Origin: Actinomycetospora sp. NBRC 106378
Lineage (GTDB): Bacteria; Actinomycetota; Actinomycetes; Mycobacteriales; Pseudonocardiaceae
Direction: 5' to 3'
Assembly: GCF_030269685.1 (NCBI RefSeq)
Contig: NZ_BSTT01000002.1
Location: forward strand, 124,001 to 188,000
Length of the DNA stretch: 64,000 nucleotides
Under the pieces are notes generated by a model. That model was not told where the DNA came from. It searched no databases and worked only from the letters and a program-made list of their open reading frames with translations. The translations under genes and the position numbers were made by a program. Shown here piece after piece: positions 43,776-52,211 of this stretch. Positions within the stretch are counted from its first letter, which is position 1. Each line of letters opens with the position of its first letter.

Positions 43776-45320
43776 TCAGCCTGCGAGAGACGCCCGCAGG
43801 TCGGCGAACAGGTCCGTGCGCGACTCCGACCCGAGGCGCTGGCGCATGCCGCGGACGTGGTGCTCGACGGTCTTGGCCGTGATGAAGAGGCGGTCGCCGA
43901 TCTCGCGGTAGGTCAGGCCCTCGAGGACGAGCTCGGCCACCTCGCGCTCCCGGTCGGACAGGACGCAGGGCCGCGGCGAGGGGGTCACGACGACGGGTGC
44001 GTCCGGCTCGGCGGCCTCGGCCGTCGGCGGGAGCACGGTCGGCCCGGCGAGCAGACCGCGGGCGAGGTTCAGCATGGCGGCGAGGACCCGCTTGTCGCTG
44101 GTCCGGACGGCGGCCTCCTTCGCGAGGCGCGCACCGTCGTAGGCCATGCCGGCGTCGGACAGCGAGCCCGCGACGGCGGTGACGTCGTCGGCGTCGACGT
44201 CCCCGGCGAGGACGCGCAGCCACGTGCGGGCGGCCCGGGAGAGGACCAGGGCCAGGGACCCGGCGTGGGCGGCCACGTCCGCGGCGCCCTCGGCGAGGTG
44301 GGCGGCGTGGCGCTGGGCGGCGGGCGGGTCGTCGGCGGCGACGGCCGCGAGGAAGGCGCACCAGTGCCACGGCGCGGCCCAGAGCACGGGTTCGCCGAGG
44401 GCGGTCAGCAGCTCGTCGCCGGCCTGCAGGTGCGGGGCGAGCCAGGCCAGCTGGCCGAGGCGGCCCGCCACGACGGCCAGCTCGCCGACCGGGAGCAGCG
44501 ACCACAGGTCGACCGCGTGCCGCAGCACGGCCTCCCGTGCGCGGGACCAGACGGCGAGCAGCCCGCGGGTGTCTCCGGCGCGCCGGACGAGGCCCGCCTC
44601 GAGCGCGACCGCGACCAGCTCGTCCCGGGCGTGGACCGGCTCCGGTCGGGCGTTGGCGGCGTCGAGACCGGCCCGGGCGGTGAGCAGGTCGCCGCCCGCC
44701 ATGTCCGCCCACGCCCGCAGCAGCAGGTGCCGACGACGGTAGGGCGCCCCGCCGAGGTCGGCGGCGAGCGCGCGGTCGACGAGGGTGCGGGCGAGGTCGG
44801 GCTCGCCGCGGTGCAGGGCGACCAGGGCGCCCAGGGCGGCGGGGGAGTCGTCGTGCAGGACCGGGGTCGCGCGGCACTCGAGCATCGCGGCGGCGCGCGT
44901 CAGGTCGGACAGCGCCGAGGCCGACCCGGCGGGTCGCACGCTCGCCCGGATCGCCTTCCCGACGAGGCCGTCGGCGCCCGCGCGCAGGGTCGGCGGGAGG
45001 GGGCGGCCCGGGTCGGTGGGGGAGGCGGGGAGTTCGCGGCCGGTGCCGACCAGGGCCACCGCCGCGGCCGGGGAGGCACATGCCGGGGCGACCGCGGCGA
45101 CCCACGCGTGCAGTTCGCCGGCGTCGCCGAGCATCCCGCGGTGGGCGTGGACGCCGGCGAGGACGTGGGCGGCCCGGACGAGCTCGGGCAGCGGCGCGTC
45201 GGTGGCCAGCACCTCGTCGGCGCATCGGGCCGCCTCGACCAGCTCTCCGGTGAGGGCGGCCTGCTCGGCCAGGGCGACGAGGTCGGCGGTCATCGGGCGC
45301 TCGATCTCGGGGGCGCTCAC
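43776..45320 (-). CDS. LuxR family regulator coupled to the Hsp70-like gene (ini-type locus)
   Basis: 514 residues from a GTG that overlaps the Hsp70 stop (GTGA). The first 430 residues are Ala/Leu-rich helical repeats of the TPR kind. The last 65 form a LuxR HTH (LSDREREVAELVLEGLTYRE, then FITAKTVEHHVRGMRQRLG). No AAA Walker motif is present, so it is unlike the 9508 regulator. In mycobacteria the iniBAC operon is controlled by IniR, and this gene is the obvious candidate for an equivalent role here; that is inference from position. Confidence 0.88.
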   Translation of the reverse strand: MSAPEIERPMTADLVALAEQAALTGELVEAARCADEVLATDAPLPELVRAAHVLAGVHAHRGMLGDAGELHAWVAAVAPACASPAAAVALVGTGRELPASPTDPGRPLPPTLRAGADGLVGKAIRASVRPAGSASALSDLTRAAAMLECRATPVLHDDSPAALGALVALHRGEPDLARTLVDRALAADLGGAPYRRRHLLLRAWADMAGGDLLTARAGLDAANARPEPVHARDELVAVALEAGLVRRAGDTRGLLAVWSRAREAVLRHAVDLWSLLPVGELAVVAGRLGQLAWLAPHLQAGDELLTALGEPVLWAAPWHWCAFLAAVAADDPPAAQRHAAHLAEGAADVAAHAGSLALVLSRAARTWLRVLAGDVDADDVTAVAGSLSDAGMAYDGARLAKEAAVRTSDKRVLAAMLNLARGLLAGPTVLPPTAEAAEPDAPVVVTPSPRPCVLSDREREVAELVLEGLTYREIGDRLFITAKTVEHHVRGMRQRLGSESRTDLFADLRASLAG

Positions 45321-47431
45321 GCAGGTGTACCGGTCGGGGTGGTGGTCGTGGAGCCGGCGGGAGGCGTCGTGGTGCCACCGGTGCCACCCGTACCTCCGGT
45401 CGACCCACCCGTGCCGGCGGTCCCTCCGGTCCCGCCCGTGCCCCCGGTCCCGCCGCCGGTCGACGGTGGCGGAGTGTTGTCCCGGGGCGTGGAAGGAGCT
45501 GGGGCCGGAGCGGGTGCAGGGGCAGGCGCCGGGGCCTTCGCCGGTGCGGCGGCGGGCGGCGGCACGACGGCGGGCGCGGCCGCCGGGGGCACGACCGGCG
45601 CGGCCGGCTTCACAGCCGCCGGGGTGGCCGCGCGGCTCCTGGTCGCGGCCACCGGCACGGCCGCGCGGCCGGAGTTGTCGGTGGTGCCGCCGGTCCCGAG
45701 GGTGTCCGGCGGCAGGGTGCCGGCAGCGTTGGCCGGCGGCGCGGCCGCGGCCGGGGTGGCGGCGTTCGGCGCGGCGGACGCGGCGACGCTCGCCTCGCCG
45801 CTGGTGTTCTTCACCATCGGCACCGCGACCGCGACGACGCCGCCCGCGACGAGGACGGCGGCGGCGCCGGCCCCGATGGCGAGGCGGCGTCGGCGGGTGT
45901 CGGGCTTGCCGGGCGGGAGCAGCGGGCCGGGGGCGGTGCCGGCGGCCCGTACGGGCGGCAGGGCGCTCGTCGGCATCGGCATCGGCATCGGCATCGGCAT
46001 CGGGGTGCGGCTCGGCAGACCCGTGCCCAGGGTGTCGGTGACGGCGTCGTCGTCGGCCCGCAGGCGCACGGGGCGCGTGATCGGGTCCTCGGCGTGCACG
46101 CGCAGGGCGGCGGCGGGCCCGACGAACTCGGTGCGCGGCTCGGCCTCGGCGTGCGCGAGCAGGGCGGCCGCCGGGCCGACCCACTCGGTGCGGGGCTCCA
46201 CCGCGGGACGCTCGAAGGGGCCCGAGATCGGGGCACGACCCGGCGTCGGGAACGGACCGGAGACCGCCGGGAAGGCGCCCGACGGCGGCCGGATCACGCC
46301 GGACGCGGCCGCTGCCGCCCAGGTGGCGCCGCGGGCGACGACGGTGGTCGGGTCGGGATCGATCGAGACCGGGCGGCCCAACTCGGCGGAGAGCAGGCGC
46401 GCGACCAGCGGGATGCGGGAGGAGCCGCCGACGAGCAGGACGCCGTCGAGGTCGGCCGGGCGGACGCGGGCGGAGTCGAGGACCTCGCCGAGGACGTCGA
46501 TCGTCTGGCGCAGGGCCGGCGCGATCATCTCCTCGAACTCGCCGCGGGTCACGCGCACGCGGGTGGTGACGTTCGGCAGGCGGACGTCGACGACCGCCTC
46601 GGTGTCGACCGACAGCGCCTCCTTCGCCGCCACGCAGGCCCGTCGGAGGCCGGCGACCGCGCGGACCGTGGCGGGGTCGGCCGGGTCGAGCGAGGCGACG
46701 GCGCCGCCGAGCTCGGAGCAGACGTGCCAGAACAGGGCCTCGTCGAAGTCGATGCCGCCGAGGGCCTCGATGCCCTGGCCGCGGCCGAGGACGGTCAGGC
46801 CGACCGGGGCGGCGGGCGAGGCGGGGACGCCGCGCACGACGGCGGCGTCGAAGGTGCCGCCGCCCAGGTCGTAGACGGCGACGGTGCGCCCGACCGGCAG
46901 GCGGCCGGCGGCGGCGTGCGCGGAGGCGGCGGCCTCGGGCTCGGTGAGCAGGACGACGTCGTGCAGGCCGACCTCGGCGAGGGCCTCGGTGAACACCCGC
47001 CGCCGGTAGGCGCCCCAGCCCGCGGGGTGGGCGACGGCGAGCCGGCGGGGCGCGCAGCCCTGCTGCCCGGCGACCCGGTCGGCGGTCCAGCGGACCATCT
47101 CGGCGGCCACGCCGTCGGCGGAGAAGCCCTCGCCGGCGACGACGATCGGGGTGTCGTCCCCGAGGCGGCGCTTGAACTCGCGCACCACGCGCTGCGGGGC
47201 CCACGGGGCGCGGGCCTCGGCCTCGCCGCCGACCAGCAGGGACCCGTCGTCGTCGACGAGGAGCACGGAGGGGACCTGGACGGCGCCGCGGTCGAGGCCG
47301 ACGACGCGCACGTCCGGCGCGGGAGCGAGGTGGACGGCGGCGGCGGTGAAGGTGGTGCCCAGGTCGATACCGAGGTCGTAGGCCACGCGCGTGCCGGGCC
47401 CTGCCGTCCCCGCGTGCCGCGGGTCCACCAT
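45317..47431 (-). CDS. Membrane-anchored Hsp70-like ATPase
   Basis: 704 residues from the ATG at 47431; starts at 47449 and 47500 are possible. The actin-like ATPase domain has DLGIDLGTTFTAAAV, VYDLGGGTFDAAV and LVGGSSRIPLVARLL, all intact nucleotide motifs. The substrate-binding and lid domains of DnaK are replaced by a Pro/Ala/Thr linker, a (Met-Pro)n run, a membrane helix (about 515-537) and an exported Pro-Ala then Gly/Thr-rich tail. It therefore links a cytoplasmic ATPase to the envelope. It is divergent from the IniB-type gene and overlaps the LuxR gene. Confidence 0.9.
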   Translation of the reverse strand: MVDPRHAGTAGPGTRVAYDLGIDLGTTFTAAAVHLAPAPDVRVVGLDRGAVQVPSVLLVDDDGSLLVGGEAEARAPWAPQRVVREFKRRLGDDTPIVVAGEGFSADGVAAEMVRWTADRVAGQQGCAPRRLAVAHPAGWGAYRRRVFTEALAEVGLHDVVLLTEPEAAASAHAAAGRLPVGRTVAVYDLGGGTFDAAVVRGVPASPAAPVGLTVLGRGQGIEALGGIDFDEALFWHVCSELGGAVASLDPADPATVRAVAGLRRACVAAKEALSVDTEAVVDVRLPNVTTRVRVTRGEFEEMIAPALRQTIDVLGEVLDSARVRPADLDGVLLVGGSSRIPLVARLLSAELGRPVSIDPDPTTVVARGATWAAAAASGVIRPPSGAFPAVSGPFPTPGRAPISGPFERPAVEPRTEWVGPAAALLAHAEAEPRTEFVGPAAALRVHAEDPITRPVRLRADDDAVTDTLGTGLPSRTPMPMPMPMPMPTSALPPVRAAGTAPGPLLPPGKPDTRRRRLAIGAGAAAVLVAGGVVAVAVPMVKNTSGEASVAASAAPNAATPAAAAPPANAAGTLPPDTLGTGGTTDNSGRAAVPVAATRSRAATPAAVKPAAPVVPPAAAPAVVPPPAAAPAKAPAPAPAPAPAPAPSTPRDNTPPPSTGGGTGGTGGTGGTAGTGGSTGGTGGTGGTTTPPAGSTTTTPTGTPA
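45971..46003. repeat. Hexanucleotide CGGCAT microsatellite in the Hsp70-like gene
   Basis: Five CGGCAT units plus CGG encode alternating Met-Pro in the linker before the membrane helix. Unit changes keep the reading frame, so length variation rather than on-off switching is expected. Confidence 0.85.
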
Positions 47432-47500
47432 CGTCACACCCAGCTCCATCCGCCCCGGCCGCCCGGACGGGGCGGCTCCGTGTCGCTGACTCGTGGCCAC

Positions 47501-47761
47501 TATCGACCCGTTCCGAGCCGCCGTTACACGTTCGTAGCTCGATCGTGTGTCGCTGGGCCGAACGGATGCCGGTGCTCCGTCACTCGCCGTGACCCCGGGG
47601 CGGCGACCGGGGCACCCGTGCGGAATCCCCTAGGGGGTCGCCCCGGGAACCCGGCGGGAGCCCCGATGGCCGGCGGGCCCCCGAGGACCACTGTTCTCAC
47701 CACGCCGCCCGGTCCGACCAGGCCACGGGCGCTCCACACACTTCCTCTGGGGGCAGAGACC
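47501..47761. promoter_or_regulatory. Divergent control region of the ini-type locus with nested palindromes
   Basis: The region between the Hsp70-like and IniB-type starts contains CCCGGGGCG (47594) and CGCCCCGGG (47639), a perfect 9-bp inverted repeat across 36 bp, with CCCCTAGGGG inside at 47627-47636. The IniB-type start is preceded by GGGGGCAGAGACC. The palindromes could be operator sites for the LuxR protein or form a leader hairpin in the IniB-type mRNA. Confidence 0.55.
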
Positions 47762-48703
47762 ATGTCCGAGCACAAGACCCTCCTCGAGTTCCTGATGGAC
47801 CTCCTCAACAACCACGACGCGCTGGCGGACTTCCGCGACGACCCGCACGCCGCGCTGCAGGCCGCCGGCCTCGGCAACGTCTGCGTCGACGACATCAAGG
47901 AGCTCCTCCCCGTCGTCCTGGAGAAGGTCGACGCCGAGAAGTGCGCGCAGTACGAGGACGACTGCGACGACGACAAGTGCTGGGACGCCGAGCCCAAGCA
48001 CCACGACGACCACGAGCACCACCACAAGCACATCGACTGCGACGACGAGGGCCGCCCGGCTCCGCACTGCTCGGAGATCGACAAGGTCGTCACGCACCTC
48101 AACTACGTGACGAACAACTACTCGTACGACTCGCACGACACGATCTACAACACCACCAACGTCACCAAGATCTGGGCCGGCGACGGCTCGGACGTGCACG
48201 TCAACAACGAGACCAACAACATCGGCTCGCACGGCGTGCAGGTCCAGGGCGACTCGAACGCCCCGATCGTCTCCGGCGACCACAGCTTCGTGGGCGACGG
48301 CAACCAGGTCTCCGGCGACGGCTCGACGACCGCCTTCGGTGCCGGCAACGCCACCTCGCTCGACCACGTCGGCACCGGCCAGGGCGGCGTCATCTCCACC
48401 GGCTCCGGCACGGTGAACAACTCGAACGCGTTCGGCCACGGCAACCAGGTCGCCGGCGCCAACGGCGTCAACACCGACGCCTCGAACCACGACTCGGGCA
48501 ACACGTCGCTGCACACCGACTCGCACAACACCGACAACTCCGGGTCGCACAACATCACCGACTCGCAGAACCACGACTCGCACGACACCGACTCGTCGGA
48601 CTCGAACAACTCGTCGATCGAGTCGCACGAGACCCACAACGCGCTCGTCGACGCCAGCCACGCGTCCCCGGTCCTGGACGCGCTGCACGTCGCCGGCGTC
48701 TGA
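47762..48703 (+). CDS. IniB N-terminal domain protein with His/Asp-rich centre and Asn/Ser/His/Thr-rich repeats
   Basis: 313 residues from an ATG at 47762. Residues 1-50 (LLEFLMDLLNNHDALADFRD, then DPHAALQAAGL) form the IniB-type N-terminal domain. Residues about 62-105 are metal-ligand-rich (CAQYEDDCDDDKC, KHHDDHEHHHKHIDCDD). The rest is Gly/Asn/Ser/Asp-rich with regular hydrophobic spacing, then SH/DS repeats rich in His, Asn, Ser and Asp; a beta-solenoid-like or disordered surface protein. It has no signal peptide. It is the first gene before two dynamin-like GTPases, like iniB before iniA and iniC. Confidence 0.88.
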   Translation: MSEHKTLLEFLMDLLNNHDALADFRDDPHAALQAAGLGNVCVDDIKELLPVVLEKVDAEKCAQYEDDCDDDKCWDAEPKHHDDHEHHHKHIDCDDEGRPAPHCSEIDKVVTHLNYVTNNYSYDSHDTIYNTTNVTKIWAGDGSDVHVNNETNNIGSHGVQVQGDSNAPIVSGDHSFVGDGNQVSGDGSTTAFGAGNATSLDHVGTGQGGVISTGSGTVNNSNAFGHGNQVAGANGVNTDASNHDSGNTSLHTDSHNTDNSGSHNITDSQNHDSHDTDSSDSNNSSIESHETHNALVDASHASPVLDALHVAGV

Positions 48704-48791
48704 GCAGGTCCACCCATCGGGTGAGCGGTCCCCGGGGACGAGCGGCACGGCGGTCGGAGCGGGCCGCGTAACGTCCCCGGGGTGACGAGGG

Positions 48792-48821
48792 AGCCGGGAC
48801 ACGGGAGACCGTGTCCCGGCT
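48792..48821 (+). terminator. Perfect 13-bp hairpin between the IniB-type and dynamin genes
   Basis: AGCCGGGACACGG (48792-48804) and CCGTGTCCCGGCT (48809-48821) are perfect arms with a GAGA tetraloop, followed by TTC. It sits 89 bp after the IniB-type stop and 22 bp before the dynamin start. It may terminate most IniB-type transcripts, attenuate read-through or protect mRNA ends. Confidence 0.75.
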
Positions 48822-48843
48822 TTCGCGCGTGTCGGGGAGGGAC

Positions 48844-50655
48844 ATGAGCAGGGACCTGGTCGACCTCGTCGAGGTCGCCCGCCGGGCGGCGACGGCCTAC
48901 GGCCGGCCCGACCTGGAGAAGCGGCTCTCGACCGTGGCCGCGACGGTCGCGGACGACCGGGCGCGCGTGCTCGTCGTCGGCGAGTTCAAGGCGGGCAAGA
49001 CCGAACTGGTCAACGCGGTCCTCGGGGGACGGGCCCTGCCGACCGACGCGCACCGGGCGACCACGGTCCCCACGGTCTGCGTCCACGGCGCGGAGCGCGC
49101 GGTGAAGCTCGCCCGAGCGGTCGAGGGCGGCGAGGAGCAGCAGCAGATCGCGCCCGCCCAGCTCGCCGAGCACGTCACCGAGGCGGGCAACCCCGACAAC
49201 GCCGCGGGCTGGTCGTACGCCGAGGCCACGCTGCCGGTGGACGTGCTCGAGGGCCTGCGGCTGGTCGACACCCCGGGTGCGGGCGGGCTCGCCTCCCCGG
49301 CGTCGGTGTCGACGATGGCCGAGCTCCCCGGTGCCGACGCGGTGCTGCTCGTGTGCGACGGCGGACGCGAGCTGACCGCCCCCGAGCTCGCCCTGGTCCG
49401 GACCGCGGTCGCGGTGTGCCCGACCGTCGCGGTCGTGCTCACCCGCACCGACCTGCACCCGCACTGGCGCCGGATCGCCGAGCTCGACCGCGCCCACCTG
49501 GACCACGCGCACGACTCGCTGCGGCGGGTCCCCGTGCTCCCCACCTCGGCCGCGCTGGCCCTGCACGACGAGGCGTCGCTGCTGGCCGAGTCGGGCGTGC
49601 CGGAGGTGCGGGAGCTGCTGCGCTCCGAGGTCGTCGGCGGCCGCCACGCCCGGCGGACCCGGATGGCCGCGGACGAGGTGCTGGTGGTCTGCGAGCAGCT
49701 GGCGGGCCGCTTCCGGGCCGAGCGGGACGCCCTGTCCGACCCGGGCCGCGCGCAGCGGATCAGCGACGAGCTGGAGCGGTCGAAGGTCCGGGTCGTGGCC
49801 CTGCGCGACCGTGCCGCCCGGTGGCAGCAGACGCTCAACGACGGCACCCAGGACCTCGTCTCCGACATCGAGTACGACCTGCGCGACCGCCTCCGCACGG
49901 TCACCACCGACGCCGAGGCCGCCCTGGACGACACCGACCCCGCGAAGACGTGGGAGCAGTTCTCGCCGTGGCTGCACCAGCAGGTGTCGGCCGCGGTCTC
50001 GACGAACGTCGTCTGGGCCGAGGAGCGCACGCGGTGGCTCGCGGAGCGGGTCGCGACCCACTTCGCGGAGGACGGCGCCGGCGTCCTGCCCCCGATCGCG
50101 TCGCCGGAGGGGCAGGCCCTGTCGGCCGACCCGGTCGGGCTGCTGGCCGCGCCGGACCACGAGAAGTTCGGCCTCTCGCAGTCGCTGATGATCGGCATGC
50201 GCGGCTCCTACGGCGGCGTCCTGATGATCGGCATGCTGACCACCATCGCCGGGATGGCCCTGCTCAACCCGTTCTCGATCGGGGCCGGTCTGCTGCTCGG
50301 CTCGAAGACGCTGGTCGACGAGCGCAAGCGCGCCCTGCGCCGTCGGCAGGCCGAGGCCAAGCAGGCGGTCCGCCGACACGTCGACGACGTCATCTTCCAG
50401 GCGGGCAAGAACTCCCGCGACATGCTCCGCGAGGTCCAGCGCACGCTGCGCGACCACTTCACGACGACGGCCGAGGAGCTCGAGCGCTCGCTGAACGCCA
50501 CCTCGCAGGCGGCGAAGGCGGTCGAGGCCGACGGGGCCAAGCGCCAGGCGCGGCTCGCCGACGTCGAGGCGGAGCTGGAGCGGCTCGACGCGCTGGAGAA
50601 GCGGGCCCGCCGGATCCGGGAGAGCGTCGGCACCGCCCGGCTGGTCGGCGCGTGA
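48844..50655 (+). CDS. Dynamin-like GTPase, IniA type
   Basis: 603 residues from an ATG at 48844. The GTPase domain has P-loop GEFKAGKT (46-53), switch I Thr region (HRATTVPTV), DTPGAGG and the LTRTDL base-recognition motif. Helical stalk regions follow. A hydrophobic paddle (about 456-490, GGVLMIGMLTTIAGMALLNP) is the membrane-insertion loop known in bacterial dynamins. A C-terminal coiled coil follows. M. tuberculosis IniA is similar in size (about 640 residues). The stop overlaps the start of the second dynamin gene. Confidence 0.92.
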   Translation: MSRDLVDLVEVARRAATAYGRPDLEKRLSTVAATVADDRARVLVVGEFKAGKTELVNAVLGGRALPTDAHRATTVPTVCVHGAERAVKLARAVEGGEEQQQIAPAQLAEHVTEAGNPDNAAGWSYAEATLPVDVLEGLRLVDTPGAGGLASPASVSTMAELPGADAVLLVCDGGRELTAPELALVRTAVAVCPTVAVVLTRTDLHPHWRRIAELDRAHLDHAHDSLRRVPVLPTSAALALHDEASLLAESGVPEVRELLRSEVVGGRHARRTRMAADEVLVVCEQLAGRFRAERDALSDPGRAQRISDELERSKVRVVALRDRAARWQQTLNDGTQDLVSDIEYDLRDRLRTVTTDAEAALDDTDPAKTWEQFSPWLHQQVSAAVSTNVVWAEERTRWLAERVATHFAEDGAGVLPPIASPEGQALSADPVGLLAAPDHEKFGLSQSLMIGMRGSYGGVLMIGMLTTIAGMALLNPFSIGAGLLLGSKTLVDERKRALRRRQAEAKQAVRRHVDDVIFQAGKNSRDMLREVQRTLRDHFTTTAEELERSLNATSQAAKAVEADGAKRQARLADVEAELERLDALEKRARRIRESVGTARLVGA

Positions 50656-52211
50656 GCGGCGCCGCCGACACGCGCACCCGCCTCACCGACCAGGCCCGGT
50701 CCGTCGTCGGGAACGCGCAGCGGCTGTACGGCAGCGGGGCGCCGGACGCGGCGACGGGGTGGGCGCGGGCGGTGCTGGCCGACGCGCGGGCCCGGCTCGA
50801 CGAGCCGCTGCGCGTGGCGCTCGCGGGAACGCTCAAGGCCGGGAAGTCGACGCTGCTCAACGCCCTGGTGGGGGAGCGGGTGGCGGCGACGGACGCGGGG
50901 GAGTGCACCCGCCTGGTCACCTGGTACCGCGACGCGCCGTCGCCGGGTGTGCTCCGCGAGGACGTCGACGGGCGCCGCGGGCCGATCCCGTTCGCGCGCG
51001 ACGGCGAGGGCCTGCGGATCGACCTGCGCGGCGTCGATCCGGCGCGGGTCGGGCGCCTGCTCGTCGACTGGCCCTCGCGCGGGCTCGCGGAGACGACGCT
51101 GGTCGACACCCCGGGGCTGGACTCGATCCGCGAGACCAACTCCCGGCGCACGCTCGCCTTCGTCACCCCCGACGACCGCCCGTCCGGCGCCGACGCCGTC
51201 GTCTACCTGATGCGCCACGCCCACCGGAACGACGTCGGGTTCCTCGAGGCCTTCGCCGACCTCGCGCAGGGCGGGGCCGGCGGGTTGGGCGCGGTCGGCG
51301 CGTCGGGCACCGTCGTGGTCCTCTCCCGCGCCGACGAGATCGGCGGCGGGGGCCTCGACGCCATCACGACGGCGGGTCGGGTCGCCGAGGCCTACCGCTG
51401 CGATCCGGCGCTGCGGCCGCTGTGCCAGACCGTCGTCGCGGTGGACGGGCTGCTCGCCGAGACCGCGCGGACCCTGCGGCAGACGGAGTTCACGGCGTTG
51501 CGGGCGCTGGCCCGGGCGCCGCGCGCCGAGGTCGACGCGCTGCTGCTCTCCGCCGACCGGTTCTGCTCGGCCGAGCCGCCCGCCGTCGTCGCGGAGGCCC
51601 TCGCCTCCGACCCGGACGGCGTCCGCCTCGACGCGACGACCCGACGTGCGCTCATGGACCGGTTCGGCGTCTACGGCATCCGCACCGCGACGACCGTGCT
51701 GCGCCGCGGGGCCCGCACCGGGCGCGGGGTGACCGACTCGGTGTCGCTGGCCGAGGAACTGGTGCGCCGGTCGGGGCTCGAGGAGCTGCGCGAGGTGCTG
51801 GCCTCGCGGGTGGTCGGGCGGCGTGACGTGCACAAGGCCCGGTCGGCGCTGCTCGCCGTCGAGATGGTGCTGGCCCGGGTGCCGCGCCCCGACGCCGGGC
51901 CGCTCGCCGCCGAGCTGGAACGGGTCCTCACCGGCGCCCACGAGTTCACCGAGCAGCGCCTGCTGGCCGCCCTCCGGCAGGGCCAGGTGACCATGCCGGC
52001 CGACACCCAGCCGGAGGCCGAGCGACTGCTGGGCGGCGACGGTCCGGGCCCGGTCGAGCGCCTCGGCGGGGCCGACGACGTCCGGGCGGCGACCCTGGAG
52101 GCGCTCGACCGCTGGCGTACGCGGGCGGAGTCGCCGCTGACCTCACGCGCGGCGGCCGAGGTCGCCCGGGCCGTGGTGCGCTCCTGCGAGGGGATGCTGA
52201 CGCACGGCTGA
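50652..52211 (+). CDS. Dynamin-like GTPase, IniC type
   Basis: 519 residues from a GTG overlapping the previous stop. P-loop GTLKAGKS (59-66), switch region ECTRLVTW, DTPGLDSI and a VLSRADE base motif are intact. It is shorter than its partner and lacks an obvious membrane paddle. The pairing of two overlapping dynamin genes, one with and one without a membrane segment, matches IniA and IniC. The two GTPases probably assemble together at the cytoplasmic membrane. Confidence 0.9.
   Translation: MSGAADTRTRLTDQARSVVGNAQRLYGSGAPDAATGWARAVLADARARLDEPLRVALAGTLKAGKSTLLNALVGERVAATDAGECTRLVTWYRDAPSPGVLREDVDGRRGPIPFARDGEGLRIDLRGVDPARVGRLLVDWPSRGLAETTLVDTPGLDSIRETNSRRTLAFVTPDDRPSGADAVVYLMRHAHRNDVGFLEAFADLAQGGAGGLGAVGASGTVVVLSRADEIGGGGLDAITTAGRVAEAYRCDPALRPLCQTVVAVDGLLAETARTLRQTEFTALRALARAPRAEVDALLLSADRFCSAEPPAVVAEALASDPDGVRLDATTRRALMDRFGVYGIRTATTVLRRGARTGRGVTDSVSLAEELVRRSGLEELREVLASRVVGRRDVHKARSALLAVEMVLARVPRPDAGPLAAELERVLTGAHEFTEQRLLAALRQGQVTMPADTQPEAERLLGGDGPGPVERLGGADDVRAATLEALDRWRTRAESPLTSRAAAEVARAVVRSCEGMLTHG

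Follow-up and report, generated by a model that had tools for sequence, protein, structure and literature searches.

A membrane-held Hsp70-like protein as a possible gate of an ATPase-less IniR in an iniBAC-type locus of Actinomycetospora

The iniBAC system and its regulator IniR are already known, notably from mycobacteria. Passages of PMC5760070 place IniR upstream of iniBAC by ChIP-seq, liken IniR to domain III of MalT and mention, in a single sentence, a dnaK-like gene beside iniR in Mycobacterium smegmatis. According to passages of PMC6104191, the induction of iniBAC in Mycobacterium bovis BCG was suppressed when the drug-induced ATP surge was suppressed, and the ATPase of IniR has been proposed as the sensor. 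Our literature search, with most subscription journals outside its scope, found no account of an Hsp70-like gene at iniBAC beyond the sentence in PMC5760070, and neither 'dnaK' nor 'Hsp70' came up when the main texts of PMC13413693 and PMC6715688 were searched by term. Here, we describe an iniBAC-type locus at 43776..52211 of a 64,000-nt stretch of Actinomycetospora sp. NBRC 106378 (NZ_BSTT01000002.1, positions 124,001-188,000; this whole stretch is called the window), in which the regulator gene overlaps a gene for a membrane-held Hsp70-like protein. We tentatively propose, with somewhat less than even confidence, that this protein, held in the membrane, gates IniR within an envelope-stress locus and provides the nucleotide switch that the regulator lacks here.

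A precedent is offered by Escherichia coli, where MalK at the membrane restrains MalT; MalT keeps an ATPase of its own and MalK is an ABC ATPase. The analogy that we propose is that of a MalT-type activator held by a membrane ATPase, in which IniR would be bound by the Hsp70-like protein; it differs from the Mal system in that the window IniR lacks an ATPase of its own and its partner is Hsp70-like. With mycobacterial iniR/iniBAC, the locus shares an IniR-type regulator, an IniB-domain protein, two dynamin-like GTPases and the divergent layout. It departs from it in that IniR is without the AAA+/STAND ATPase and the Hsp70-like gene coupled to it has its catalytic residues intact; in the mycobacterial-type loci read, the P-loop is present (except in L261) and the Hsp70-like neighbors are degenerate.

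Genes of the window locus

On the minus strand, the Hsp70-like gene is followed by a LuxR-type gene whose GTG start shares 4 nt (GTGA) with the Hsp70 stop; divergent from this pair, the plus strand carries an IniB-domain gene and then two dynamin-like genes, which also share 4 nt (GTGA). The overlap on one strand and the divergent IniB-dynamin arm, both read from the letters in an earlier note on this DNA, hold in the window sequence. The IniB-type gene scores 59.4 bits against the NCBIfam IniB N-terminal model NF038175 (cut-off 40), both dynamin genes match Pfam Dynamin_N, and the family of the first dynamin, taken as a profile of 21 relatives, aligns with solved IniA (6j72) over the whole length (E 4.7e-219). 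The succession of an IniB N-terminal domain gene and two dynamin-like genes, together with the IniA-type family profile, bears out the designation of the locus as iniBAC-type. The second dynamin is a candidate IniC, so called by its place and pairing rather than by comparison with IniC itself.

The LuxR-type gene matches the NCBIfam IniR model NF038181 (E 3.8e-98) only over positions 330-826 of 827, that is, the C-terminal part of IniR with the LuxR-type DNA-binding domain (GerE in Pfam). At 329.9 bits, it misses the curated cut-off of 750, above which a match is found in 24 of 298 genomes of the order. Upstream of the start, the same frame continues without a stop across the Hsp70 gene, and neither a match to the N-terminal part of IniR nor a P-loop is found in this extension. 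Judged by its sequence, the gene is IniR without its N-terminal AAA+/STAND ATPase half. The view of the earlier note that a LuxR gene had been added as an extra regulator enlarging the locus is rejected, since this very sequence is the C-terminal part of IniR. The same genome holds two further IniR loci, each with a dynamin pair and an Hsp70-like gene: one, on contig C4, encodes a full-length IniR (profile 5-825), the other, on contig C2 at about 22 kb from the window locus, a second ATPase-less IniR (profile 332-825). The same trio of IniR relatives is carried by the related genome G002. The nearer one is a paralogous five-gene locus (L061 5970-14623), in which the Hsp70 catalytic set is partly eroded beside the ATPase-less IniR.

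The Hsp70-like protein has a nucleotide-binding domain (NBD) at aa 14-380, to which the Pfam HSP70 match, stopping at profile position 377 of 599, and the matches in the Protein Data Bank (PDB) are confined. Six catalytic positions were scored in bovine Hsc70 numbering, and all six are kept. AlphaFold2 (AF2) gives the NBD a pLDDT of about 90; 336 of the 704 residues fall below 50, 323 of them after the NBD, and no confidently folded part is modeled after aa 380. Neither the substrate-binding domain nor the interdomain linker of Hsp70 was found in the window protein by Pfam, linker motif or AF2. A hydropathy scan predicts a membrane span at about aa 519-537, preceded by the Arg-rich stretch TRRRRLA and followed by a 167-residue tail that is Pro/Ala/Gly/Thr-rich, of low complexity and disordered-looking. 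The protein therefore shares with DnaK/Hsp70 chaperones the NBD with its phosphate and adenosine motifs and differs from them by a span and a disordered tail where they have the linker and substrate-binding domain; a standard Hsp70 chaperone is rejected on the absence of the latter domain. While the membrane anchoring announced in the earlier note is supported by the predicted span, its label of chaperone is weak, both for this reason and because 40 of the 41 relatives that stand beside a full-length IniR lack part of the catalytic set. Among the Hsp70-like open reading frames (ORFs) of our survey (>150 bits, without DnaK linker), a span follows the domain in 107 of 130, and in 77 of the 97 from dynamin loci, some ORFs being cut by the ends of the stretches. 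The genome of the window has a fourth membrane Hsp70-like gene (L232 9169-10728), and the stretch around it shows no dynamin.

Occurrence and coupling across the order

The sample comprised the 298 genomes of the order, with IniA-type loci defined as rows of at least 399 bits (n=131). Among the 150 Hsp70 matches listed, at least 79 of these 131 loci lie within 12 kb of a match, for about 0.5 expected by a crude estimate. Of the 52 others, an Hsp70-like gene was found in 23 of 26 read and then in 1 of 6 more, giving 103 of 111 examined loci. In six of the eight loci without the gene, the dynamin stands alone, its stretch showing no second one (L294-L298 and L283, the latter on a contig end); the other two are L262, near a contig start, and L282, with a fragmentary partner. 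L294-L298 are IniA-like dynamins from five genomes of family f8, without IniC, IniB, IniR or Hsp70 in their 20-kb stretches. Two survey ORFs (L260, L263) carry the DnaK linker and look like DnaK, and L262, which is cut off, groups with them; all three were set aside.

The usual order, IniR - Hsp70 / IniB - IniA - IniC, recurs in several families, including f8, whose IniR copies exceed the mycobacterial cut-off of NF038181 and whose genomes are probably mycobacteria. In three f8 loci (L256-L258), the Hsp70-like gene lies past the second dynamin instead. Two mycobacterial-type loci (L253, L255) have a second degenerate Hsp70-like gene, past IniR or past the second dynamin. All five genes are present in Microbacterium yannicii (L163), and Hsp70 and dynamins, with no IniR in the stretch, in Saccharopolyspora shandongensis (L104) and two Paractinoplanes (L106, L107). 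The earlier note had taken the lack of conserved co-occurrence beyond this genus as grounds to give up its proposal; the linkage being conserved far beyond the genus, in several families, the proposal passes on this point. The same counts rule out an enlargement peculiar to this genus: the Hsp70-like gene, presented there as a newcomer, is a regular member at most IniA-type loci of the order.

Does this regularity imply a joint role? A neighborhood due to shared stress regulation alone, with no direct joint role, could account for the 30 of 40 Hsp70-centered stretches that show no dynamin, some of them cut by contig ends. An Hsp70 scan of genome contigs gave at least 80 loci, of which 8 (L103-L109, L163) entered the survey; the 72 left out, mostly 26-35% identical, were taken as DnaK or other Hsp70s, and three were read (L139, L146, L153). 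We nonetheless regard shared regulation alone as very improbable, as gene order and overlap are conserved over several families and the blocks are inherited jointly. Among the 59 tandem Hsp70-IniR pairs, 40 offer an in-frame IniR start that shares 4 nt with the Hsp70 stop: all 15 of the window's clade and 25 of 43 other pairs do so, and L080 does not. These counts concern possible start codons; three pairs (L075, L078, L082) have an equally near one 3 bases past the stop. The overlaps point to translational coupling of the Hsp70-like gene to IniR. The 15-locus clade, made of A1 (with the window), A2 and L079, is supported at 1.0 in the tree of the C-terminal part of IniR and at 0.999 in the IniA tree; the Hsp70 tree groups the same 15 weakly with L080, within a clade of 51 supported at 0.997. 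As read from these trees, the IniR and IniA blocks are inherited together. A Rosetta-stone argument was dropped, no Hsp70-IniR or Hsp70-dynamin fusion occurring among the survey ORFs.

ATPases, promoter box and candidate mechanisms

Of the 59 tandem pairs, 38 combine a P-loop IniR with a degenerate Hsp70, 11 (the window pair among them) an IniR without P-loop with a live Hsp70, one has both live and nine have neither. Of the 41 Hsp70-like proteins adjacent to an IniR whose ATPase half was detected, a single one (L163) has the six catalytic residues complete, against 11 of 18 where the adjacent IniR is without it; in clade A1, that of the window, the set is complete in 7/7 loci. The association is strong when rows are treated as unrelated (Fisher p 6e-6), and a single switch for each pair agrees with the finding that most of the tandem relatives read combine an IniR ATPase with a degenerate Hsp70. 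In L275, L091, L105 and L213, the P-loop lysine is replaced by arginine and the Hsp70 set is complete. On the present sequences, the alternation of live ATPases is a lead, not proof.

The intergenic region between the Hsp70-like and IniB genes was compared in 60 stretches shorter than 600 nt, out of 69 found (nine longer ones were dropped). CCCCTAA occurs on either strand in 43 of 60, for 1.9 expected, and CCCCTA directed toward iniB in 50 of 60 loci, often in tandem 8 bases apart. In clade A1, the window included, the variant CCCCTAG prevails; the window has it in the form of TCCCCTAGGGG at 47626. Taken alone in the window at 1 mismatch, TCCCCTAGGGG is at chance level (two hits, both strands of one palindrome, 0.9 expected); with up to 2 mismatches allowed, a 16-nt form of this box has a single occurrence in the 6.3-Mb genome, for 0 in the control. 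A further element, CCCCGATG, recurs on either strand in 34 of 60 regions (3.5 expected). From its recurrence, we name the CCCCTA element a putative IniR box, at which IniR would bind the promoter as activator of iniBAC.

In the mechanism that we favor, IniR, made of a sensor part and a LuxR DNA-binding domain, would be produced in translational coupling with a membrane-held Hsp70-fold ATPase bearing a disordered outer tail. At the membrane, this protein would bind IniR and hold it inactive; envelope damage, through the ATP level or the membrane state, would shift its nucleotide state and so free or activate IniR. IniR would then bind the CCCCTAGGGG box and turn on iniB and the two dynamins, which may remodel the damaged membrane. 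The physical contact, the gating, the signal and the function of the box are the parts that we infer. The ATP-surge results in mycobacteria, as given in passages of PMC6104191, support a link of ATP to iniBAC. In a bolder and rather doubtful version, a STAND-class activator would have handed its nucleotide switch to the translationally coupled, membrane-held Hsp70-fold ATPase, and an Hsp70 domain devoid of chaperone activity would gate the envelope-stress operon of the dynamins, sister lineages having gone the reverse way and kept Hsp70 as a dead scaffold.

Several observations weigh against a gate of IniR. On the IniA tree, each trait changes 4 times, leaving 4 independent pairs (on average 1.7 the same way, 0 opposite, 2.3 without difference), so that the alternation cannot reach significance after tree correction. 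The nine pairs with neither ATPase are seven A2 loci, L261 and L274; the sister paralogue A2, without P-loop and without the full Hsp70 set, indicates that a live ATPase is not always needed. Where IniR is in the stretch and not adjacent, 15 of 21 Hsp70-like proteins keep six of six (17 of 23 with the DnaK-like L260 and L263), and several of these accompany a P-loop IniR. Hsp70-like genes also sit with dynamins where no IniR is in the stretch. Moreover, 20 of the 97 ORFs from dynamin loci have no predicted span, some being cut by stretch ends, and the tail has no conserved domain in the sequences read. Ten of the 60 loci have no forward CCCCTA, L079 and all six A2 loci compared among them, and at the third locus of this genome the stretch read contains no CCCCTAA.

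Some of these facts would suit a role on the effector side, where the Hsp70-like ATPase would act on assembly or disassembly of the dynamin coats, or on IniB, much as the earlier note had suggested, and would merely be co-expressed with IniR. Among the matches listed, the 123 IniR loci of the order comprise 71 with Hsp70 and dynamin, 44 with dynamin only, 8 with neither and 0 with Hsp70 but no dynamin; as Hsp70 is never listed with IniR alone, we hold this for the main rival. In addition, six of six residues are kept in 14 of 15 rows with a dynamin and no IniR in the stretch, some stretches being cut by contig ends (16 of 17 before exclusion of the DnaK-like L262 and of L281, on the same contig as L108). 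We consider it unlikely all the same, given that the protein has no substrate-binding domain or linker, that the gene overlap is with IniR, and that ATP-driven work seems often dispensable, 40 of the 41 neighbors of a full-length IniR having an incomplete set.

The loss of catalytic residues in several clades also suits a tether or scaffold of actin/Hsp70 fold that would run from membrane to wall and mark the site of action, ATP turnover being inessential and IniR otherwise regulated; the basic stretch, single span (77/97 in dynamin loci) and disordered-looking tail of most members agree with it. The six of six kept throughout A1 and in most non-adjacent copies suggest selected ATP use and speak against the tether, which we regard as improbable.

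Features of the locus and meaning

The remaining features concern the dynamin arm (Table 1). In the IniB-type protein, a His/Asp cluster, KHHDDHEHHHKH, varies between relatives, the rest being Asn/Asp/Ser/Gly/His-rich. Between iniB and the IniA-type gene lies a perfect 13-bp hairpin with no T run, and the fold of 48704-48850 has a z of -6.3. Among the 15 loci of the window's clade, 13 have a stem of 12-21 bp, of changing sequence, in this gap; in six other loci, no stem there exceeds 7 bp. The hairpin possibly sets the expression of iniB above that of iniA.

Table 1. Positions in the window of the genes and elements of the iniBAC-type locus
Feature	Position	Strand	Basis
ATPase-less IniR homologue, 514 aa; LuxR/GerE DNA-binding domain aa 453-504	43776..45320	-	NF038181, GerE
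Hsp70-like membrane protein, 704 aa	45317..47431	-	Pfam HSP70, PDB Hsp70 NBDs, AF2
Predicted membrane span of the Hsp70-like protein, IGAGAAAVLVAGGVVAVAV	45821..45877	-	Hydropathy scan
Palindromic TCCCCTAGGGG, candidate IniR box, shared divergent promoter region	47626..47636	+	Conservation of CCCCTA
CCCCGATG, second recurrent element	47661..47668	+	Recurrence in intergenic regions
IniB-type protein, 313 aa	47762..48703	+	NF038175, composition
Perfect 13-bp hairpin between iniB and the IniA-type gene	48792..48821	+	Stem search, fold
IniA-type dynamin-like GTPase, 603 aa	48844..50655	+	Dynamin_N, family profile vs 6j72
IniC-position dynamin-like GTPase, 519 aa	50652..52211	+	Dynamin_N; 4-nt overlap with IniA-type gene

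How IniR senses envelope damage is a question that the Hsp70-like gene may answer. Coupled to iniR, widespread and scarcely mentioned, it encodes a membrane protein that is a candidate link from the membrane or the ATP level to iniBAC, and an IniR without ATPase, as found in the window, allows the roles of the two ATPases to be tested separately. If the proposal is true, an Hsp70 domain would serve here as a signaling switch, not as a chaperone.

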